This document shows positions 9,872 through 23,497 of a stretch of 64,000 nt of DNA, one piece after another (the stretch's first letter is position 1; every line of letters begins with the position of its first letter). Below the pieces are notes generated by a model. It was not told the origin of the DNA. It saw only the letters and a list, made by a program, of their open reading frames with translations, and ran no database searches. A program made the translations under genes and the position numbers. The stretch spans positions 1 to 64,000 of the forward strand of contig NZ_SMKX01000007.1 in assembly GCF_004349055.1 (NCBI RefSeq), given 5' to 3'. The stretch is from Kribbella antibiotica (lineage in GTDB: Bacteria > Actinomycetota > Actinomycetes > Propionibacteriales > Kribbellaceae).

Positions 9872-12800
9872 TTAGCTGTCGTGCGCCATGTCGACGAACC
9901 GCGAGTAGTGACCCTGGAACGCCACCGTGATGTCGGCGGTCGGGCCGTTACGGTGCTTGGCCACGATGAAGTCCGCCTCGCCCGGTCGCGTCGACTCCCG
10001 CTCGTACGCGTCCTCACGGTGCAACAGGATCACCATGTCAGCGTCCTGTTCCAGGGAATTATGTGTAGCGATGCCTTCGGCAACGAAGTTGTGGGTGCCG
10101 AGGACGGTGGCGTCGTACACCTCCTGCTCACCGAGGCTTTCGACCGAGGTGATGGCGTCCCAGAAGATGTCGTTGGTGGCGAGGACCTCAAGGTCGGCGG
10201 AGTCCAGGACGTCGGCGACCTTGGCGAGGCGCTGGCGGCTGGGGGCGTGCTTCCACAGGGTGGAGCCGGAGAACTGAGTGCCCATGGCTGCGGCGAACTC
10301 GCGGTGGGTGACCTGGCGGTCGGCGAGGACTTGACGCACCTGCGACCAGACTTCCTTCGGCACCGTGTCGAGGTTGGTGTTGCCCTTCACATCACGCAGC
10401 GCCGTGGCGACTTCGAGCACCTTCAAGCCGCGCAGTCCGTGGACACCGATCTCGTCACAGAAGCGAAGCTGGTTGGCCGCGCCATAGATATGCAGGTGGT
10501 AGCCGTCGCGATAACCCGCCTTCTTAGCGACCTTGATGCGGGTAAAGATGTTGTGGCGGAGCAGCAGCCGAGCGAGGTCGTCGACCAGGCGGCGGCTGGT
10601 GCTGGCGTAGTAGATGCGAGCCTGGCCGACCTTCGCGTCCCAGCGGACGGAGCCATCGGTGGCCCAGATGTGGCGGATGAAGTGCGCCACCTGCTCCTTT
10701 GGCAGACCGAAGACGCCGTCGGGGACGAACTTCTCGTGGCTGCGCAGGCCGAACAAGCCCAGACCGTCGAGCCAGGCGGCGATCGGGTTCCGCTTGCCGC
10801 GGGCCAGCCGGTACGGCGCTGGGAGGCGGAGCGTGGTGACGCGGGCAGCGGCGTACTCGTCGCGGATCGGCGTGATGCCGAACCGGCGGTTGGCCGCCTC
10901 ACCGACTGCGGTCAGGTTCGCCTCGTCGATGCTCGCGTAGCGAATCGGCTGCCGCTTGACGAACGAACCGTCACCGGTCAGGTGGGCGAGCAGCGTGAGC
11001 TCGTCCTCGTCCCACGGGGTGACCTCGAGCGGCGGCGGGACGTGGCGCAGCGAGCCCAACCGGGCGCCCGGGGCCAACTCACCGAGCGGCTTCCAACCGT
11101 CGTACGTGAGGAAGGGGTGGTTTGCCGTTGCCTTGATCTCGCGACCGGAGGCCAACTTCAGCCGGAATACTTCCTTCACCCCGCTGGGGAAGGCGTGGGT
11201 CAGCGTGCGCGGCACCAGCTTCAGCCGGTCGTCGAGCGACCAGACCGGGATGTCGCGAGCGTCCGTGGCCAGCAGCTCACCCAGCGAGATCTCCGCACCG
11301 GTGTCGGCCCGCATCAGCCGCGTGTCCGCGGTCAGACATCCCGATTCACGAAGGTCCGAGGACATGGGGCGTTTGTCGGCGCGTTGTTCGGAGCCACGGT
11401 TGAGCTGACAGATCGCCACGACGGGGAGTTCCAGTTCTTTGGCGAGGAGCTTGATGGAGCGGGAGAACTCGGAGACTTCGAGCTGGCGGGACTCGACCTT
11501 CTTGCCCGACGTCATCAGCTGGAGGTAGTCGATGATGATGAGGCGGAGATCGTGGCGCTGTTTGAGGCGGCGGGCCTTGGCGCGGATCTCCATCATGGTG
11601 AGGTTGGGCGAGTCGTCGATGAAGAGGGGGGCTTCGGAGACTTCGCCCATCTTGCGGGCGAGGCGGGCCCAGTCCTCGTCGGTCATCTTGCCGTTGCGCA
11701 TGTGGTGCAGGGGGACCTTGGCTTCGGCCGACAGCAGCCGCATGGTGATCTCGTTGCGGCTCATCTCCAGGGAGAAGACGCAGGAGGCGAGGCCGTGCTT
11801 GATCGAGGCGGAGCGGGCGAAGTCCAGGCCGAGGGTGGAGTTGTGGGTCGGGATCATGGTCTTGCCGGCCAGGTAGAGATGGGCGGCGTTGTCGACCTCG
11901 ACACAGCGAACGGGGACGCTCGCGACCTCGTCGATCCACTCGATCCGGCGGTCGGTCTCGTCGGAGAGCGCGGCCGGGAAGCCGTGGCCGGTGACCTGAC
12001 GGGGGGCTGAGCCCGGGATCGGCGGGGTGAGGCCGGGGCTTGCCTTCATGGCTGTGAACAGGTCGGCGGTCGTGCAGATGATCGGGTAGCGGCCGTCCTC
12101 GACGAGCCACTGGTGCTCGGCGTCGGCGACGATGGCGCTGCCGTCGGAGAACGAGAGCCGGTAGCACGGGCGGTCGACCATGACCTCGGTGGCCGCGACG
12201 ACGGTGGTCGGCAGGCCTTCGGCGTCGAGGAGCTGGTCGCCGACGGCGACCTCGGCCATCGTGGTCCAGCCGGTGGGCGTCGGCAGCGGGGTGTCGAGCG
12301 CGAGCGCCTTACCCATGGCGGGACGGGCGGCGACGATGATCATCTGGCCGGGGTGCAGGCCGTTGGTCAGCTCGTCGAGGTCGGTGAAGCCGGTCGGTAC
12401 GCCGACCATCGAGTCACCACGGGAGTCGATCGCCTCGATCTCGTCGAGGGCGCCCTCCATGATGTCCTTCAGCGGCGCGTAGTCCTCGGTGGTGCGCTTC
12501 TCGGTGACCTGGTAGATCTCGGCCTGCGCCTCGTCGACGACGTCGTCGACCTCGCCCTCCCCCGCATATCCGAGCTGGACGATCTTGGTGCCGGCCTCGA
12601 CCAGCCGCCGCAGGATCGCCTTCTCGCGGACGATGTGCGCGTAGTAGCCCGCGTTCGCGGCGAGCGGCACCGAGGCGACCAGGGTGTGCACATACGGCGC
12701 GCCACCGATCCGGGCCATGTCGCCGCGCTTGCTCAGCTCGGCGGCGACGGTGATCGCGTCGGCCGGCTCACCGCGGGCATACAGATCGGTGATCGCGTCG

Positions 12801-13006
12801 AAGACGGACTCGTGCGCCGGGCGGTAGAAGTCCGTCCCGCGCAGGGTCTCGATCACGTCGGCGATCGCGTCCTTGGACAGCATCATCGCGCCGAGCACAC
12901 ACTGCTCTGCGGGCAGATCCTGCGGCGGCGTGCGATCGAACCCCATCTCGGGGTTGCGCTCTTCGCGGCCGCCGTCCTGACCACCGCGGAACTCCGCCAC
13001 GCTCAC
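9872..13006 (-). CDS. dnaB: Replicative DNA helicase DnaB with two inteins
   Basis: The hexameric replicative helicase that unwinds DNA at the fork. The precursor is 1044 aa. Removing residues 234-389 and 557-983 leaves a 461-aa helicase, the normal length. The N-terminal DnaB domain starts at DLPAEQCVLGAMM, and the RecA-like ATPase has the P-loop AARPAMGK/ST split by intein 1 and DYLQLM as Walker B. The second split is at DLRESG/SLEQDADM. I chose GTG 13006 because GGAGGT stands 6 nt upstream; the frame upstream to 13219 lacks helicase features. Splicing of both inteins is required for activity. Confidence 0.96.
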   Translation of the reverse strand: MSVAEFRGGQDGGREERNPEMGFDRTPPQDLPAEQCVLGAMMLSKDAIADVIETLRGTDFYRPAHESVFDAITDLYARGEPADAITVAAELSKRGDMARIGGAPYVHTLVASVPLAANAGYYAHIVREKAILRRLVEAGTKIVQLGYAGEGEVDDVVDEAQAEIYQVTEKRTTEDYAPLKDIMEGALDEIEAIDSRGDSMVGVPTGFTDLDELTNGLHPGQMIIVAARPAMGKALALDTPLPTPTGWTTMAEVAVGDQLLDAEGLPTTVVAATEVMVDRPCYRLSFSDGSAIVADAEHQWLVEDGRYPIICTTADLFTAMKASPGLTPPIPGSAPRQVTGHGFPAALSDETDRRIEWIDEVASVPVRCVEVDNAAHLYLAGKTMIPTHNSTLGLDFARSASIKHGLASCVFSLEMSRNEITMRLLSAEAKVPLHHMRNGKMTDEDWARLARKMGEVSEAPLFIDDSPNLTMMEIRAKARRLKQRHDLRLIIIDYLQLMTSGKKVESRQLEVSEFSRSIKLLAKELELPVVAICQLNRGSEQRADKRPMSSDLRESGCLTADTRLMRADTGAEISLGELLATDARDIPVWSLDDRLKLVPRTLTHAFPSGVKEVFRLKLASGREIKATANHPFLTYDGWKPLGELAPGARLGSLRHVPPPLEVTPWDEDELTLLAHLTGDGSFVKRQPIRYASIDEANLTAVGEAANRRFGITPIRDEYAAARVTTLRLPAPYRLARGKRNPIAAWLDGLGLFGLRSHEKFVPDGVFGLPKEQVAHFIRHIWATDGSVRWDAKVGQARIYYASTSRRLVDDLARLLLRHNIFTRIKVAKKAGYRDGYHLHIYGAANQLRFCDEIGVHGLRGLKVLEVATALRDVKGNTNLDTVPKEVWSQVRQVLADRQVTHREFAAAMGTQFSGSTLWKHAPSRQRLAKVADVLDSADLEVLATNDIFWDAITSVESLGEQEVYDATVLGTHNFVAEGIATHNSLEQDADMVILLHREDAYERESTRPGEADFIVAKHRNGPTADITVAFQGHYSRFVDMAHDS
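10058..11338 (-). other. DnaB intein 2: class 1 with LAGLIDADG endonuclease
   Basis: 427 residues (557-983 of the precursor) inserted after DLRESG and before SLEQDADM, the position used by the Synechocystis DnaB intein. It starts with Cys (CLTADTRL), has block B TANHPFL, block F YDATVLGTHNF and ends GIATHN followed by Ser+1. This is a complete class 1 splicing set. Two dodecapeptide motifs, LLAHLTGDGS (about 672-681) and IRHIWATDGSV (about 777-787), mark a LAGLIDADG homing endonuclease with the acidic residues kept, so homing activity may persist. Confidence 0.92.
11840..12307 (-). other. DnaB intein 1: class 3 mini-intein in the P-loop
   Basis: 156 residues (234-389 of the precursor) between GK and ST of Walker A. 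The first residue is Ala, not Cys or Ser. The class 3 Trp-Cys-Thr signature is complete: Trp300 two residues after the block B His (DAEHQW), Cys368 at block F (PVRCVEVDNA), and Thr387 just before the terminal HN (IPTHN). Class 3 inteins use the block F Cys as first nucleophile. No endonuclease domain is present, so it is a mini-intein. Confidence 0.9.
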
Positions 13007-13144
13007 TGTCCGACCTCCATCGTTCGCCGCTGCCCCCGAACCACCGACGACCGGGGCTCGAACACCTGATCGAACCGTAGCCGCATGGACTGACAATTTT
13101 CTGCCGCCCGCCTGGACACCCAGGCACGCGACCGTACGCCGGTC

Positions 13145-13333
13145 TTGTCCCCAGGTGGTAGCCAGCCGTCCACAGGGGATGTGGAAGAGCTGTGGGAAAA
13201 CCCGCCAACGCCTGTGCACAGGCTGGGAACAACCCTGTGGATATCTGTGGGCAAGATTTCTCCACAGGCCTCTGACCTGCGGTTTCGTCCATGCACAACT
13301 GTGGAGAGAAAAAAGTCGGCCAGCTTGTTCACA
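13145..13333. promoter_or_regulatory. Cluster of DnaA-box-like 9-mers between dnaB and the MATE gene
   Basis: At least seven 9-mers resemble the actinobacterial/E. coli DnaA box (TTGTCCACA or TTATCCACA): 13145, 13166, 13236 (minus strand), 13246 (minus), 13258, 13300 (minus) and 13325. CCGTCCACA at 13166 fits the degenerate high-GC consensus; the others differ at one position. The 360-bp gap holds no gene. No dnaA, dnaN or recF is nearby, so this is probably a DnaA-responsive control or titration region, not the main origin. Confidence 0.5.
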
Positions 13334-15614: not shown

Positions 15615-17460
15615 GACGCTGCTCCTCAGTCTGCTCCCACACCGGTACGCCGGTCGGCATCGGCGGCGGACCGCCCTGCTGCCCACCAGTCACCCAGGGG
15701 TTCGCTCCAGCTCCAGGCCCACCCTGCGACAACTGCGGCGCTGTCGCGCCCGGGTCGTACTTCGCCAGCGACGCCTTGACCGCTCCGGCGTCCGCGCGCG
15801 TGAACCACGGCACCGTCTTCACCATGGTGGCCGGGATGCCGGACGGGAACACCACCGCCCGGCCGGGCGGCATCGCTGCCAGGTCGGAGATCTCGAGGAT
15901 GTTCTGCCGCTGCGTCTGCCGGCTGGTCCCTCGCTTGCCCTCGTTGTACGAGACCGAGCTGGAGACGATGTCGTAGTCGCCGATCAGCTTGCTCAGCCGC
16001 TCCAGGAAGTTCGCGTCGGACGCGCCACCGCCGTACACGCGGATGTTGGCGGCAGACCAGAGCTTCTCCATGCCGTGCTCGCCCCAGCACTCCTGGCCCT
16101 GCGCCCAGGACTGCAGGATCGTCATCAGGACGATGCCGCGGGAGCCGAAGTGGCTGTAGAGGTCGGGGAGGTTCTTCCAGCGGCACACGTTCGCCGCCTC
16201 GTCCAGCACGCCGACCAGTGGGTTCGGCATCCGGCCCATCGGGCAGCCCTTGGCGTACTCCTCGGCCGCCTCCACGACGGCGACGGTCAACGCGGTGACC
16301 AGCGGACCCGCCGTACCGGCGCCTTCCTTGGAGAGGCTGTAGAGCGTGCCGCCCTTGCGGACGAACTCGTGCGGGTTGAACTGCGGACGCGTGTCGTTAG
16401 GGCCCTGCGGGATGACCCAGCGGGTCACCTTGCGGTTCACCAGGAACTGGGCGCTCTGCTGCGCCGTGCCGTACACACCGGCGCGCTGCTTGTCAGGTGC
16501 GTTGATGACACCGGACAGTGCGTCGGCGGAGAGCTGCAGGCCCGGAGTGTTCCGCAGGATGCGTTCTGGCTCGTCGTTGCGCTGGTCCGCGAGCCACGTG
16601 TACACCTGCGTGATCGGACGCTTGGCAACCGCCGCGGCGAGCAACAGCCCAGCCAGCAGGTCCGTACCGGCCGAGTCGAAGAACGCATCGGTCTGTGCAC
16701 CGACCTGACGCTGTGAGGCGACGAAGTGCTCCGCCAGCTCCCGTGCCTTGGTCTCGTCGGTGATGTAGGACAGCGGGTTCCACCACCAGTTCGGCGGCTC
16801 CTCACAGACCTCTTGCGGGTCGAACACCCAGACCGGGCCCTTGTCGAGCCGCGGGCCGCGGGTGGCGTCCACGATGTCGCGCTTGTTGGAGGTGGCGACC
16901 ACGGAGCCAGGAGCATCCAGAATCGCCGGTACGGCGCGGGACGTCGTCTTACCGGTCCGCGGGCCCCAGATGTCGATGTGCATGTCTTCCCAGGACCCGA
17001 AGACCTCCAGGTTGTCCCGGACGGTCCGGCCGATCAGGATGCCCGGACCGGCATGTCCGGCGCCGAGCCGGTTCGCGATGCCCTGCGCGCCTTCGCGGGT
17101 CAGCTTGAAGATCTCCGACCGCTTCGACATCAGGAACGCCTGCCGGTCCACCCGACCGCCCGACGCCTTCCGGCGGCGGAGCAGGTACCACCCCAGGCCG
17201 ACGAGCAGGCCCAGCAGCACGAGCTCAAGGATCAGTACGCCGGTCGCTGCGCCGGACCAGCGCAACCGGCCCTGGATCAACTGCGACAGCGCGCTGAACG
17301 GGTTCGCCGGTACGGCGCGGGTGCCGTCGATCGAGGCCGTTGCCTTCAGGGCACCCCAGATCGTGCCGGCGGCGACCACGAGCACGCCGCAGCCGATGAA
17401 GATCAGGACCGTCTCGACGGACAGGCCGCCCGGTCCGGTCGTGCGTTTGCCGTCAGCCAT
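15604..17460 (-). CDS. VirD4/TraG-like type IV coupling ATPase
   Basis: A 618-aa membrane-anchored ATPase that in conjugation systems couples substrate DNA-protein to the secretion channel. Two N-terminal membrane helices (about 17-38 and 72-94) precede a cytoplasmic ATPase domain. Walker A is GPRTGKTT (166-173) and Walker B is LVGVLDEAANV (415-425), followed by the TraM-recognition-type C-terminal part. The P-loop is uninterrupted, unlike in the neighbouring VirB4-like gene. Its start overlaps the end of that gene by 8 bp. No relaxase is visible, so the transported substrate may be protein or unknown DNA. Confidence 0.88.
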   Translation of the reverse strand: MADGKRTTGPGGLSVETVLIFIGCGVLVVAAGTIWGALKATASIDGTRAVPANPFSALSQLIQGRLRWSGAATGVLILELVLLGLLVGLGWYLLRRRKASGGRVDRQAFLMSKRSEIFKLTREGAQGIANRLGAGHAGPGILIGRTVRDNLEVFGSWEDMHIDIWGPRTGKTTSRAVPAILDAPGSVVATSNKRDIVDATRGPRLDKGPVWVFDPQEVCEEPPNWWWNPLSYITDETKARELAEHFVASQRQVGAQTDAFFDSAGTDLLAGLLLAAAVAKRPITQVYTWLADQRNDEPERILRNTPGLQLSADALSGVINAPDKQRAGVYGTAQQSAQFLVNRKVTRWVIPQGPNDTRPQFNPHEFVRKGGTLYSLSKEGAGTAGPLVTALTVAVVEAAEEYAKGCPMGRMPNPLVGVLDEAANVCRWKNLPDLYSHFGSRGIVLMTILQSWAQGQECWGEHGMEKLWSAANIRVYGGGASDANFLERLSKLIGDYDIVSSSVSYNEGKRGTSRQTQRQNILEISDLAAMPPGRAVVFPSGIPATMVKTVPWFTRADAGAVKASLAKYDPGATAPQLSQGGPGAGANPWVTGGQQGGPPPMPTGVPVWEQTEEQRRGW

Positions 17461-20380
17461 TGTTCGTCACCTCCGGCCGCGCGACGACCCGGGTGGTCGG
17501 GTCGGGCGGCGGCAGCATCGCGGGGTCGTCGAAGCTGTACTCCTCGACGACCTCCTCCGTCCCGTCCTCGGCGACCTCGACCTTCAACGGCCGTCCGTCG
17601 GCGCCGGTCTTCCACAGCTTGTTCGTGTCGTTGATCTCGCGCTCCACCGAGGTGAGGCCGACGTGCACCGGGATACCCGGGCGGCCACCGACCTTGATCA
17701 GGAAGTTTCCGCGACCTGGGGGCGCCGCTTCTTCACCGGTGGCCGGGTCCCAGGCGGGCGGGTCCTGCCAGCCGATGAGCATGTTCTGCTCTTCCTGCGA
17801 CATCGGCACGACCTCGGTCAGGTTCTCCATCTCGGCCCGCGGCAGACCGCCGAGGACGACCATGCCGGACCGCTCGACGAAACCCTTGGCCTTCATCCGG
17901 TCCTCGGGGTGCTCGAGCGCGAGCAGGTCGGACATGGTGTGCGAGATCATCGCCATCCCGACACCACGCTGCCGGTTCAGGCGGGTCAGTGCGTCGACGC
18001 GGTCGACCAGACCACGCCCGGCACGCAGCACCCGCCACAGCTCGTCGAGGATGACGAAGTAGTGCCGCCGCGGCTCGAGCCCGGCATCGGCCAGCGCCTG
18101 TGCGACCGCGACCGCACCGAAGCCGTACGACCAGCAAGCCAGCAGTACGGCGGCTTGCAGGTTCGTCTCGGAGTCGTCGATGTTGGACACGTCGAAGACG
18201 ACCGGACGGTCCATCTTCATCGGGTTGTCGGTCTGCTCGGAGAAGATCTCGCCGAGCCGGCCACCGCCGACCAGACCGATCAGCGAGGCCTCGAGACCTT
18301 CGGTGATCTGCCGGTACCGGTCGAGGCTGCCGCGGTCCAGAGCCACGTTCCGCACCCGGTCCGGCGCGTCCTGGACAACCTTGAGCAGATCGCGCAGGAC
18401 CGGCGTACCGGTGTGGCGTTCGTCGAGGACCTTGAGGGCCTCGTCGATGATCGTCTCTTCGCGGTCGGTCGGCGGGGCCGAGCGCATGATCGAGATCAGC
18501 GCCGAAACCATCGTCTGCCGGCGGCCGTGCGCGTCGGCCTGGATCGCCTCGCGAGCCTTGCCGGTCAGCCGCAGCGCGGCCTCCCGCGACTCCCCCGGGT
18601 CCAGGATGTTCAGATGCCCGCGTCCGCGGCCGAGCTGAATGACCTGCCCGCCCAGCGACTCGATCAGGTCCTTGTAGTCGGGCTTCAGATCGCCGAGCAC
18701 CAACGGCTGAACGCCGTACCCGGCGAGGCCGAGCGCCATCCGCCGGGTGATCGTTGAGTTGTGCGTGGTGATGAAGGTGCGACCAGCCAGGTAGAGGCCA
18801 TCGGAGTTCGCCACCTGGATGCACCGGACCGGCCTGGACGTGACTCTGCGCGCCGACACGACGTACCGATGTGAGGTCCGGGCCGGGTTGCCGACCGTCC
18901 TCTCTGCGTGCGTCTCGTGCTTTCGACGCAGTCCGAACACCTCGTCGGTGGTGGTGAATCCGATCGTCCACTTCGGACCGCAGTCCTTGCCGTTCACTGT
19001 CGCCCGTCCCTCACGAAGGGTCGGGCGATAGCCAAGGCTCGCGACGAGTTCCAGTACGTCGTCAGCCAACCGCCGGTTGGTCGCGGTGTACTGGACCTGG
19101 CCACCCGCCGGTGAGACCGTGCCGTCGGTGTCGAGCAGACCGGCGAGCAGGTCGCGCCGCTGTCGGTCCGATCCACGCAGATAGGTCGTTGGAATGTGCT
19201 TGGCATTCAGAACGCCAAGCTCACTCAGGACCTGCGTGAGGCCGATTCCCTTCTGCCGGTAGGTCCCGGGAATCGTCAGCCGGTAGAGCATCGGCCCGGT
19301 CTGCTCGCATTCAATTCCTGCGGCCCGAATCCGATCGACGATGCCCTGGTCGATCGAGGTCAGTCGCGGCGCCGCACTGTGCCCATCACCCAGCCAGGCG
19401 CCCAGCACGTACGGATCCAGAGGCAGACCGGCTTCGCGCAGGACAAGACCTTCCATCACCCGGACAGCGTGATTGGCCTTGCCGCCCGCGACCAGGGTTG
19501 CTGCGATCTGGGCCGTCGTGACGGCCTCCTTCTGCGGCGTCCGGTCACGCTGATCATTCTTCGTCCGGCGCAGCGCCTCGTCCACCGCACCGACCAAGGT
19601 GGATGGGTCGTACCAGCGTCGGCTGCCCTTGCTGCGAACCGGTTCCACGGTGCTCGCCCAGCGGTAGACCGAGCTTTCACGGGTGGTGCCGTTCCAGCCG
19701 AGGGCACGGGTCAGATCCCGGACCGTAACCGGCTCGGCGCCAAGACTCGTCCGGGCGGCACCAACAGCCGTGAGTTCGGCGTCCGTACCGACCGGAAGCC
19801 GCTTGCGCGGCACGTTGTGCTCCACCCAGCTTCGCCGACGATCTTCAGCTGTCTCCGTCACCCACAGGTGCTCGGCGTCGGCGACGATGGTCTCACCGCT
19901 GGAGAAAGTGAGCTCCCAGCAGTCGCGCTCGTTCATCACCTCGGACACCGCAACGACCGCCGTCGGCAGGCCGTCCGCACCGAAGACGAAATCGCCCGGC
20001 TGCAAGTCAGCCATGCGTCGCAATCCGTCCGGCGTCGGGATCTGGGTGTCGACGTCGAGCGCCTTACCCAGACCGGGTTTACCGAGGACGAACATCGATG
20101 GGTTCGAGATCAGTTTGGCGCGCATGAACCAGCTGATCGGGTCGCAGCACATGGTTGCGCCGGAGAGGATGTTGCGGCCGATCGGTACGCCGACCATCGG
20201 GCTGCCGGTGCCGGCCGAGAACGGCCACATCCCGCAGACCTGGACCGTCGTACCGCGCCACTCCTGCGGAGCCTGGAGGTAGGTCGAGTACCCGCCGCCC
20301 ATCCCCGGCCAGCCACGCGGCATCGGCCGCTTGCCGCGCCGGGTCGGGTCGACGGCCTTCTCCGGCTTCGGCTTGCTCAC
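17453..20380 (-). CDS. VirB4-like secretion ATPase interrupted by an intein
   Basis: A 975-aa precursor; removing intein residues 107-541 leaves a 540-aa ATPase. Walker A is KPGLGK/ST, split by the intein, and HYFVILDELWRVL (773-785) is Walker B. Downstream, GMAMISHTMSDLL and the arginine-rich region resemble VirB4/TraC hexameric ATPases that power pilus assembly and transfer. Its first residues overlap the SCO6880-like gene by 4 bp (ATGA). The protein cannot bind ATP until the intein splices. Confidence 0.88.
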   Translation of the reverse strand: MSKPKPEKAVDPTRRGKRPMPRGWPGMGGGYSTYLQAPQEWRGTTVQVCGMWPFSAGTGSPMVGVPIGRNILSGATMCCDPISWFMRAKLISNPSMFVLGKPGLGKALDVDTQIPTPDGLRRMADLQPGDFVFGADGLPTAVVAVSEVMNERDCWELTFSSGETIVADAEHLWVTETAEDRRRSWVEHNVPRKRLPVGTDAELTAVGAARTSLGAEPVTVRDLTRALGWNGTTRESSVYRWASTVEPVRSKGSRRWYDPSTLVGAVDEALRRTKNDQRDRTPQKEAVTTAQIAATLVAGGKANHAVRVMEGLVLREAGLPLDPYVLGAWLGDGHSAAPRLTSIDQGIVDRIRAAGIECEQTGPMLYRLTIPGTYRQKGIGLTQVLSELGVLNAKHIPTTYLRGSDRQRRDLLAGLLDTDGTVSPAGGQVQYTATNRRLADDVLELVASLGYRPTLREGRATVNGKDCGPKWTIGFTTTDEVFGLRRKHETHAERTVGNPARTSHRYVVSARRVTSRPVRCIQVANSDGLYLAGRTFITTHNSTITRRMALGLAGYGVQPLVLGDLKPDYKDLIESLGGQVIQLGRGRGHLNILDPGESREAALRLTGKAREAIQADAHGRRQTMVSALISIMRSAPPTDREETIIDEALKVLDERHTGTPVLRDLLKVVQDAPDRVRNVALDRGSLDRYRQITEGLEASLIGLVGGGRLGEIFSEQTDNPMKMDRPVVFDVSNIDDSETNLQAAVLLACWSYGFGAVAVAQALADAGLEPRRHYFVILDELWRVLRAGRGLVDRVDALTRLNRQRGVGMAMISHTMSDLLALEHPEDRMKAKGFVERSGMVVLGGLPRAEMENLTEVVPMSQEEQNMLIGWQDPPAWDPATGEEAAPPGRGNFLIKVGGRPGIPVHVGLTSVEREINDTNKLWKTGADGRPLKVEVAEDGTEEVVEEYSFDDPAMLPPPDPTTRVVARPEVTNNG
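18758..20062 (-). other. Class 3 intein with LAGLIDADG endonuclease in the VirB4-like P-loop
   Basis: 435 residues inserted between GK and ST of Walker A. It begins with Ala107, has Trp173 in block B (DAEHLW), Cys520 in block F (PVRCIQVAN) and Thr539 before the terminal HN, the class 3 Trp-Cys-Thr signature. An endonuclease is present: VLGAWLGDG (325-333) and LLAGLLDTDGT (411-421) are LAGLIDADG dodecapeptides with their acidic residues. Its first 67 residues align without gaps to DnaB intein 1, with about 37 identities counted by eye. Confidence 0.9.
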
Positions 20381-21885
20381 AGCGACTCCCGCAGACCGGC
20401 CGGAACGGACAGGTGGCTCTGCAGTACGACGCCGAGCGGCAGCCCGGCCACGAACGACGAGTCCTGCGATCCGTACGCCGGTCGCAGCAGCACCCGAGCT
20501 GTCGCGCCCAGGTTGTCGATGGCGGCGATCATGTCCGGGATCTGCTCGGCCGTCATCACTGTTCCGGTGACGATCATGCCGAAGTTCACCAGACCGGCCC
20601 CGCGCGCCTCTTCCTGCGCGGTGCGGTCAGCAGCGCGGGCCTCGGCCATCGTGCGCGCCGAGGGCCGGGCGGTGGTCGTCGCGCGGAAGGATGCGTTGCG
20701 CTTGTCGGCCTCGACCATGCGGGCCGCGGTGGCCGCGTCGAGCGGCCGGTAGAGCAGAGTGACGCGCTTGCGGTCGATGTCGTTGTGCGGACCGACCAAC
20801 TGCGACAGCACGGACGAGAACACCTCGCCGCGCGGAGCCTGCGTCATCTGCCAGGTCACCGACCAGGCGGAGTCGTGCCGGTACTTGTCCCAGAACGCCT
20901 GTGCACCAGCCGGACCGACATCGGTCCACTGCAGCTCGGGCGCCATGCCCTGGCTCCGAGCCTCATCAATCAGTACGGCGGACGCCGGGTCATAGGCGAT
21001 CCGGATCGTCTCGCATAGCTCCTGCGCAGTGACCGGGCGAGCCGCTCCGGCGCCAGTCGCGTTCAAGCTCTGGGTGAGCGCGGGAAGCCGGGACGCGAGC
21101 TCCCGGCCCATGTCCTCTTCCTTGCGCCGCTTGCCGTTGCGGTCGGTGCCCTTGAAGGTCAGCGCGACCCGGGCCGACACGAGCGCCGAACCCTCGGGGT
21201 AGCTCTGCACGACCTCGGCGAGCATCGCCTGAGCGATCGCCGGGGAACCGGGCTGGATGTTGTGGTTGACCTCGCGCCGCAGCCGGATGCCGGTGTCCGG
21301 TGCACTCTCCACCGTCACCGAGGCGGCGACGATGCCCGGCTCGTGGCCGAGCGAGGCGAGCCACTGGCCCCAGTGCGCGACCCAGTTGTCGATCTGGTCG
21401 TCGTCGACCAGCGACGCGCCGTCCGGCTCGGCGTTGATCACGACGGTGAAGTGCCGCGTGCTCGGGTAGAACAGCAGCGCGAACGGCCGGCCGTACGAGT
21501 CCTTGTACTCGCTCAGCTGCGAGGCGGCGGCCAGGCCAGGGATCTGGAACTTGCCCCAGGCGGTGCGGCCGAGCGGACCGGAACGGTAGATGTTGTGCTT
21601 CGCCATCTTTGCTCGTTGCCATCCAATACGGGTCGAGAGCCGTTGCAGGGCGGACAGGTTGTGTTTGTCCTTTGTCATCAGCAGCAGCAGCATCACGCCG
21701 ACGACCAGCAGACAGATGAAGGCACCGAGGATTCCGCCCGCCATCATCGAGAAGATCGTGGCCAGCAGGCCACCCATCATGATGCCGGTGCCCAGCGTTC
21801 CCAGGCCGGCGATACCCGCCGAGGCGGGCTGCCGCCAGTTGCCGTAGGTGCGCGGAACGCTTCGTACGTTGTCAGCTGCTGCCAC
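20377..21885 (-). CDS. SCO6880-family conjugation protein
   Basis: A 502-aa protein of the family named after S. coelicolor SCO6880, found in actinobacterial conjugation-like clusters. Two N-terminal membrane segments (about 24-48 and 50-70) are followed by a large cytoplasmic domain (SALQRLSTRIGWQRAK onward). The family is thought to combine VirB3/PrgI-like membrane parts with the N-terminal region of VirB4. It has no P-loop, consistent with the separate ATPase gene downstream. It overlaps the upstream TrbL-like gene by 14 bp and the downstream gene by 4 bp. Confidence 0.85.
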   Translation of the reverse strand: MAAADNVRSVPRTYGNWRQPASAGIAGLGTLGTGIMMGGLLATIFSMMAGGILGAFICLLVVGVMLLLLMTKDKHNLSALQRLSTRIGWQRAKMAKHNIYRSGPLGRTAWGKFQIPGLAAASQLSEYKDSYGRPFALLFYPSTRHFTVVINAEPDGASLVDDDQIDNWVAHWGQWLASLGHEPGIVAASVTVESAPDTGIRLRREVNHNIQPGSPAIAQAMLAEVVQSYPEGSALVSARVALTFKGTDRNGKRRKEEDMGRELASRLPALTQSLNATGAGAARPVTAQELCETIRIAYDPASAVLIDEARSQGMAPELQWTDVGPAGAQAFWDKYRHDSAWSVTWQMTQAPRGEVFSSVLSQLVGPHNDIDRKRVTLLYRPLDAATAARMVEADKRNASFRATTTARPSARTMAEARAADRTAQEEARGAGLVNFGMIVTGTVMTAEQIPDMIAAIDNLGATARVLLRPAYGSQDSSFVAGLPLGVVLQSHLSVPAGLRESL

Positions 21886-23497
21886 GTGGTCCGTCCGAAT
21901 CTCGTCTGTGGTCGTCGCGGGGCTGGCGCTGCTCCCGCTGCCGTTCCCGGTTCACATCCCGCTGTGAGCCGCCACTGCCGGACGGTCCACCACCGCCACC
22001 ACCACCACCGCCGCTGCTGCCTTCGCTCCCGCCGCCGCCACCGGAGCCCTGCGGGGCATCGTCGCCGAGCGTCTCTTGCGCGGCCATCTCGCCGGCCTGC
22101 TTGGTCGCCTTGACACCGGCCGCAACGATCGCGATCGGCGCCGCCACAGCGGCCGCTGGGCCTGCTGCGGCCGCCGCACCACCGGCTGCCGCGCCGCCAC
22201 CGGCCGCTGCTCCACCGGCCGCTGCTCCACCGCCCGCAGCACCGCCCGCAGCACCGCCACTGGCGCCGGCCGTTGCAGGGGGTGGCGTAGCGCCCCCTGT
22301 GGGAGCTCCCTTCGGACCACCCGTACTCGGCGCCTGCTGTTTGGCCTTCCCGACGTTCTTGGAGCCGGTCGGGCCGTCGCCGCCACCACCCTCGCTGCCG
22401 CTACCGCCTTCGCCCTGGAGCGAGTCCTGCAGCTTGCCGGCCAGCTTGTCCGCACCGACCAGCTTGGCGGCGATCATGCCGGCGCCGGCCTGTCCCGCGG
22501 TCGCAGCGACCATCGGAACGATGAACCGCATCAGACCGGGAAGTGCGAACAGCGCAAGCACCAGCAGGGTCAGGCCGGTGACCATGTTCATCACCGAGTT
22601 GCCCGCCGCCGTGGTGGAGGTGAGGTTCAGGCCGCCGCCGTTGTTGGACGTCAGCCTGATCGCGGTCGCATAGACGATCGCGGCCACCGGTTTGTAGAGC
22701 ACGAAAGCGAACATCCAGCCGAGGATCTTCTTGAACCAGTTCCGGCCCATCTCGGTGTTGGTCGCCGCCGCCGCGATCGGCAGCATGCCGACCAGCAGGA
22801 TCAGCATCGCGCTGCGCACCACCATCAGGATGATCTGGATCACCCCGGCGATGATCGCCAGGATCCCGATCGCGATCGGCAGCGCGATCCCCATCGGCCC
22901 GACCCGCGACGAGACCGCCAGCATCGTGGTCATCGCGGCGCCGAACGTCGTGTGTTTCGGGGCATTCGGTTTCGTGAGGTCGCTGAGCTCGCACTGCCAG
23001 CCGAGCTTCGGATCGTCGAACAAGGAGGTGTTGACGATGCACTGGGAGAACTGGTCACCGAACTCGATCAGGGCCTGCGTCACGCCGACGACGAGCAGCG
23101 ACGCGACGCCCAGGGTGATCAGCGACCGGAGCAGGTCGCGGGCCGACTCGCCCCGCTGGCTGTAGGCCATCTTGATCCCGGCGATCAGCACGCCGACGAT
23201 CGCGACGGAGAAGGCGATGTAGTGGGTGTGCGACCACACCCAGGCGACCGTGCCGGAGGCGGGCTGCCCCGGGTTGTCGCCCATCGTCGGGGAGCCGACC
23301 GCGATGGTCGGGACGTAGACCCAGAAGGTGGCGATGGTGCCCATCACCACGGTCACGGCTTGGGAGATCGCATCGAGAATCGGCTGGAAGATCATGCCAA
23401 TCAACCACTTCACTTGGTCGCCGACCCACTCGGTGATCTTGGCCCAGACACAGTCCAGCCAGTTGCCACACAGCGGGATCAGGTAGAGGCGGTTCAC
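21872..23497 (-). CDS. VirB6/TrbL-like polytopic membrane protein with Gly/Ala-rich tail
   Basis: A 541-aa channel-type protein. The N-terminal two thirds carry about six or seven membrane segments and the stretch NTEMGRNWFKKILGWMFAF, then VLYKPVAAIVYA, shared with the upstream paralogue. From about residue 365 the protein turns into a long disordered tail of Gly, Ala, Pro and Ser repeats ending in basic residues. VirB6/TrbL proteins form the inner part of the transfer channel. The start is 2 nt from the preceding stop. Confidence 0.8.
   Translation of the reverse strand: MNRLYLIPLCGNWLDCVWAKITEWVGDQVKWLIGMIFQPILDAISQAVTVVMGTIATFWVYVPTIAVGSPTMGDNPGQPASGTVAWVWSHTHYIAFSVAIVGVLIAGIKMAYSQRGESARDLLRSLITLGVASLLVVGVTQALIEFGDQFSQCIVNTSLFDDPKLGWQCELSDLTKPNAPKHTTFGAAMTTMLAVSSRVGPMGIALPIAIGILAIIAGVIQIILMVVRSAMLILLVGMLPIAAAATNTEMGRNWFKKILGWMFAFVLYKPVAAIVYATAIRLTSNNGGGLNLTSTTAAGNSVMNMVTGLTLLVLALFALPGLMRFIVPMVAATAGQAGAGMIAAKLVGADKLAGKLQDSLQGEGGSGSEGGGGDGPTGSKNVGKAKQQAPSTGGPKGAPTGGATPPPATAGASGGAAGGAAGGGAAAGGAAAGGGAAAGGAAAAAGPAAAVAAPIAIVAAGVKATKQAGEMAAQETLGDDAPQGSGGGGGSEGSSGGGGGGGGGPSGSGGSQRDVNRERQREQRQPRDDHRRDSDGPRGSS

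Follow-up and report, generated by a model that had tools for sequence, protein, structure and literature searches.

Genes and inteins of the locus

The window, a 64,000-nt stretch of Kribbella antibiotica DNA (contig NZ_SMKX01000007.1, positions 1 to 64,000), carries a cluster of type IV secretion-type genes next to dnaB. The genes of this neighbourhood and the inteins that interrupt them are as follows:

9872-13219, minus strand: dnaB, replicative helicase gene with two inteins
10058-11338, minus strand: second DnaB intein, class 1, 427 aa, with a LAGLIDADG domain, at RESG/SLEQ (Intein_splicing, intein_Nterm and intein_Cterm matches)
11840-12307, minus strand: DnaB P-loop class 3 mini-intein, 156 aa, no endonuclease, cut at GK/ST, the site of Mycobacterium smegmatis DnaBi1 (PMC6195587)
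15604-17460, minus strand: VirD4/TraG-type coupling ATPase, without an intein in the window (its counterpart in genome G027 has one at the P-loop)
17453-20380, minus strand: VirB4-like ATPase gene (ORF), 975-aa precursor, 540-aa ligated exteins
18758-20062, minus strand: 435-aa class 3 intein bearing a homing endonuclease, inserted at GK/ST of Walker A; 33 Kribbella genomes have the exact site empty
20377-21885, minus strand: SCO6880 family protein of the same cluster (E value 5e-174)
21872-23497, minus strand: TrbL/VirB6-like membrane protein of the same cluster (E value 1e-6)

The ligated exteins of the interrupted ATPase matched the NCBIfam VirB4-like model conju_CD1110 (E value 1.6e-10; 39.9 bits against a cut-off of 325), a TraC-F-type model (E value 6e-5) and the VirB4 structure PDB 4ag5 (E value 9e-4). 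As the curated VirB4 family cut-off was not reached, and a match to Pfam AAA_10 was not returned, we refer to the host as VirB4-like only. These VirB4 matches, together with the gene order TrbL-like/SCO6880/VirB4/VirD4, support the original prediction of a VirB4-like host in a type IV secretion-type cluster. The cluster adjoins dnaB in 38/38 Kribbella genomes and therefore looks like a fixed chromosomal locus. When this genome was searched for a second VirB4 of the same family, only the gene itself and pieces of the DnaB intein were matched, so the ATPase presumably depends on splicing.

The two inteins of the neighbouring dnaB are reminiscent of those in M. smegmatis DnaB, where a class 3 mini-intein in the P-loop is likewise accompanied by an endonuclease-bearing class 1 intein (PMC6195587); the RESG/SLEQ site of the second Kribbella intein is apparently that of M. 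smegmatis DnaBi2. The DnaB copy had been described as lacking an endonuclease, which is correct for the P-loop intein but not for DnaB overall, since the class 1 intein bears one. The VirB4 and DnaB P-loop inteins, put 8 kb apart by the same prediction, are in fact separated by ~6.45 kb.

A class 3 intein with a LAGLIDADG endonuclease

The coordinates predicted for the VirB4 intein proved right to the base. Its junctions (...LGKPGLGK/ALDVDTQ...FITTHN/STITRRM) place the cut at K/S of Walker A, and the GK/ST cut is indeed at the same P-loop point in virB4 and dnaB, as had been proposed. The intein can be divided as follows:

19847-20062, minus strand: N-terminal splicing half, residues 1-72, blocks A and B; first residue Ala, W67 = B:12
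19535-19801, minus strand: extra helical module of ~85 residues (88-176) between the splicing domain and the endonuclease
18887-19519, minus strand: LAGLIDADG endonuclease domain, residues 182-392 (Pfam LAGLIDADG_3, E value 4e-9; fold matches PI-SceI, Z 26, and TliVMA, Z 26)
19382-19405, minus strand: first LAGLIDADG motif, LGAWLGDG (from residue 220), with D226
19121-19147, minus strand: second LAGLIDADG motif, LAGLLDTDG (from residue 306), with D313
18758-18862, minus strand: C-terminal splicing half, residues 401-435, blocks F and G; C414 = F:4, T433 = G:5, H434, N435

Each element of the signature by which PMC3196547 defines class 3 inteins is present. Position 1 is Ala rather than a Ser, Thr or Cys nucleophile, the WCT triplet consists of W67 (B:12), C414 (F:4) and T433 (G:5), and the block G His-Asn (T433-H434-N435) is followed by Ser at +1 (THN/S). 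The triplet is invariant across 22 aligned relatives, and 244 of the 246 inteins collected passed the WCT pattern. An AlphaFold model of the 435-aa intein (mean pLDDT 90.3) has a splicing domain that matches the class 3 DnaB inteins M. smegmatis DnaBi1 and M. chimaera DnaB-1 (PDB 6bs8, 6rix) at Z 22, with 69-70 residues of the N-terminal half superposing at 0.6-0.7 Å. These two resemble the VirB4 intein in class, WCT triplet, P-loop position and splicing fold, but they have no endonuclease, reside in DnaB and belong to another lineage. The class 3 assignment made in the original prediction is thus upheld by Ala1, the triplet, THN/S and the modelled fold.

Both acidic LAGLIDADG residues are kept, as claimed, in a domain recognised by Pfam and by its fold, and the intein is sporadic in the genus, occupying exact sites in five of 38 genomes and leaving 33 empty. 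The endonuclease appears intact from its sequence. PI-SceI, the yeast VMA intein, likewise combines a splicing domain with a LAGLIDADG endonuclease and matches over the whole length (Z 26), but it differs in its class 1 chemistry, its host and its target and is only 19% identical.

The ~85-aa helical module returned no Pfam match and possibly takes part in DNA recognition; 48 aa of it are deleted in the G027 VirB4 intein. The distance from the conserved Trp to the endonuclease is 152 aa in the Kribbella VirB4 intein and 158 in the VirB4 intein of Actinomadura (see below). Elsewhere it is ~150-162 in about half of DnaB inteins, mostly 50-100 in viral inteins, and 72 in the full Kribbella DnaB inteins, from which the module is absent. 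A Zn-ribbon-like insert between both LAGLIDADG motifs is present in the full Kribbella DnaB inteins, the Actinomadura VirB4 intein and the intein of genome G058, and absent from the Kribbella VirB4 inteins.

Relatives, trees and distribution

The original prediction regarded an intein in a type IV secretion-type ATPase as unusual, and our searches agree that it is uncommon in the family, though further cases were found. Among the listed close homologues from 395 genomes, only the VirB4 of this genome was split by an intein, and a class-wide search for VirB4 inteins returned, apart from this genome, only inteins hosted by DnaB. The VirB4 of Actinomadura kijaniata NBRC 14229 (L195/L355) carries an intein that agrees with the Kribbella one in host family, TrbL/SCO6880/VirB4/VirD4 gene order, P-loop cut, ALDVD start, ITTHN end and length class of the extra module (51% identity over 465 columns). 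It differs in being 512 aa long and in having the Zn-ribbon-like insert, and its host VirB4 is only ~35-41% identical; we found no published description of it. An apparently decaying intein host was found in a third genus (G892, L354), where a frameshifted VirB4 gene retains the remnant of an intein of the VirB4 lineage. Genome G058 encodes a secretion-type ATPase with a related intein (L104), by inspection probably of conjugation type, and also an FtsK-like ORF of 1817 aa (L103) with two inteins, of which the first lies in the P-loop and the other downstream of it.

More widely, class 3 inteins at a GK/S-or-T P-loop were found in DnaB, FtsK, FtsK-like, VirB4-like and many viral proteins. A Bifidobacterium longum plasmid (L344) encodes an AAA_10 ATPase with a large class 3-like intein at GK/T, and that of Curtobacterium plasmid D40 (L343) has such an intein after DPK, away from the P-loop; with Rhodococcus pRDE01 (L342), these plasmids account for the large class 3-like inteins seen in ATPases of the AAA_10 and FtsK-like types. 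Two Kribbella PhoH proteins, of G002 (L071, 348 aa) and G006 (L072, 356 aa), have class 3-like inteins that are 76% identical and sit at GRA/TLND, outside the P-loop. The VirD4 of G027 (L060/L121) is interrupted at P-loop GK/TT by a 373-aa class 3 intein, which is closest (39%) to the PhoH inteins of other Kribbella and ~33% identical to the VirB4 intein; it possibly marks a separate jump between unrelated ATPases. The TerL1-a inteins of mycobacteriophages are also inserted in the P-loop after the invariant Lys, a cut that has been called classic, and class 3 inteins are found among terminase inteins and are common to phage terminase and DnaB (PMC5050341). They differ from the VirB4 intein in their phage terminase host, and identity reaches ~41% at best. 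In the open-licence literature we found no papers on inteins in VirB4, VirD4, conjugation or type IV secretion ATPases, which does not prove that none exist.

Relatives for the trees were drawn from genomes, viral contigs and plasmids. Because the DnaB P-loop intein of the window has no endonuclease, the full-length test used the DnaB inteins of G014 and G028. Only two VirB4 inteins of the same lineage were found outside Kribbella, and the one in the broken G892 gene was left out. In the careful full-length tree, the Kribbella and A. kijaniata VirB4 inteins grouped together (100/96) and were joined by the G058 ATPase intein (97/95), while all DnaB inteins formed their own group (100/99), with the Kribbella P-loop inteins nested among actinobacterial DnaB inteins. 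Forcing the Kribbella VirB4 and DnaB inteins to be sisters cost 91.9 log-likelihood units and was rejected (AU p 1.4e-6); a quick full-length tree of 69 rows gave the same picture, with marginal rejection (p 0.048). The splicing-domain tree also joined the Kribbella and A. kijaniata VirB4 inteins (SH-aLRT 86-89) and kept the Kribbella DnaB inteins, mini and full, as a group of their own within DnaB inteins, although its ~105 columns are too few to reject sisterhood (AU p 0.47). The conclusion drawn from the trees therefore rests mainly on the full-length data, in which most columns come from the endonuclease. On these trees, the VirB4 intein stems from inteins of other VirB4-type ATPases and not from the neighbouring DnaB intein.

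Within Kribbella (38 genomes, including G006, K. catacumbae, G007, VKM Ac-2527, and G027, recorded as 'Streptomyces sp. SID13031' yet falling in Kribbella), the VirB4 intein is carried by G000, G002, G006 and G007 (435 aa) and by G027 (387 aa); virB4 is uninterrupted, with a clean empty site, in the remainder. The DnaB P-loop is occupied in 35/38 genomes, by 156-aa mini-inteins in 33 and by 413-aa inteins with an endonuclease in G014 and G028, and is empty in G003, G006 and G030. The class 1 DnaB intein is sporadic (26/38) and requires at least nine state changes.

Origin and meaning of the VirB4 intein

The original prediction raised ectopic spread between the two neighbouring genes: within Kribbella, a single class 3 intein would have passed from one of the two P-loops to the other, aided by a common target DNA. 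The two inteins share the GK/ST site within ~6.45 kb, and the ~37 identities claimed over 67 gap-free residues are close to the 38/70 that we counted, with a further 18/29 at the C terminus and 72% DNA identity over 211 bp (E value 7e-25, two-piece comparison); nor do splicing-domain data alone exclude sisterhood. By sequence comparison, this resemblance is real homology, but at the normal level for the class. Over the first 70 residues, the Kribbella DnaB inteins share a mean of 38.3 with the VirB4 intein, the Actinomadura VirB4 intein shares 44, and 118 non-Kribbella DnaB inteins share a mean of 36.4 (maximum 40), 28 of them 38 or more and so equalling the local copy. Beyond the full-length tree and AU test, in which each intein groups with its own host family from other genera, the grouping named beforehand as speaking against local spread, architecture also separates the two, the ~85-aa module of the VirB4 intein being absent from the full Kribbella DnaB inteins, which have the Zn-ribbon-like insert instead. 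As to the supposed common target, in a comparison that took in VirB4, DnaB and VirD4, the 27 nt around the insertion point were identical between VirB4 and DnaB of one genome at 17.5 positions on average, against ~24 for the same gene between species. Upstream, the two genes agree at 22/23 nt over MVGVPxG codons, but the match was judged to be chance, as its distances from the inteins differ. Moreover, G006 has a VirB4 intein with both LAGLIDADG motifs beside an empty DnaB P-loop, and G014 and G028 have a DnaB P-loop intein with endonuclease beside an empty VirB4 P-loop. The coexistence of either endonuclease with an unoccupied site in the other gene, together with the target divergence, is suggestive evidence against cross-homing, short of proof since an empty site may also reflect lack of opportunity. 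Taken together, we consider local spread extremely improbable.

Vertical descent of the VirB4 intein within Kribbella, followed by loss in 33 of 38 species, would fit the placement of G006 next to G027 on the gene tree and the sister relation of their inteins. However, the DnaB+VirD4 gene tree calls for at least four state changes, and G000 and G002 carry sister inteins in host genes that are not sisters. In the five carriers, dS of the intein is higher than that of the exteins by a factor of 1.4-2.9 (median 2.5), a ratio that alone is not decisive because the lower codon bias of the intein could inflate dS (GC3 0.77-0.82, against 0.90-0.95 in the VirB4 exteins). In contrast, the DnaB mini-intein has an intein/extein dS ratio of 1.00 (528 pairs) and host-like GC3 in 3/4 carriers measured; the corresponding dS ratio of the class 1 DnaB intein is 1.97. 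The VirB4 intein does not match its host gene in GC3, and its synonymous divergence looks too great for the two to have simply been inherited together; vertical descent followed by loss is highly unlikely. Repeated arrival of the VirB4 intein from outside, with vertical descent of the DnaB mini-intein, is the simplest reading.

Very probably, therefore, 18758-20062 is a full-length class 3 intein, probably splicing-competent and mobile, which belongs to a VirB4-type lineage, was acquired horizontally and is not a copy of the DnaB intein. From known class 3 chemistry, C414 would attack the Lys/Ala junction, the N-extein would pass to Ser+1, and N435 would cyclise, rejoining GK to ST and restoring Walker A. 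We infer that the endonuclease would cut intein-free virB4 alleles, allowing spread by homing. The VirB4-type-specific lineage would have entered the virB4 genes of Kribbella horizontally, probably on several occasions, and would be related to the DnaB P-loop inteins only through the older common origin of class 3 inteins at P-loops. An ancient form of ectopic spread is compatible with this explanation and, we think, likely: class 3 inteins would have jumped repeatedly among P-loop ATPases (phage terminase, DnaB, FtsK-like and VirB4-like), and the VirB4 lineage would go back to one such jump, which long predates Kribbella. The presence of P-loop class 3 inteins in several ATPase families, the shared WCT triplet and fold, the reported monophyly and phage origin of class 3 inteins (PMC3196547) and their sharing by terminase and DnaB (PMC5050341) all favour such jumps, but many deep forks are weak, and the trees do not settle their order and direction. 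More speculatively, and in our opinion improbably, actinobacterial secretion clusters may have been invaded repeatedly at motor P-loops (VirB4, VirD4 and other conjugation-type ATPases), with redox-sensitive splicing at Cys F:4, of the kind reported for DnaBi1, making assembly of the secretion apparatus dependent on stress.

VirB4-like secretion-type ATPases, and VirD4 in one strain, thus join the ATPases known to harbour class 3 inteins at the P-loop; the host is new, the intein class is known, and the find is not a surprising one. The dnaB-virB4 neighbourhood, where an apparently mobile intein lies close to a fixed mini-intein that is also of class 3, is a natural test with two related inteins at equivalent protein sites in neighbouring genes. 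Each intein keeps to its own gene, which argues that homing specificity may follow the gene-specific flanking DNA and not the shared Walker A.
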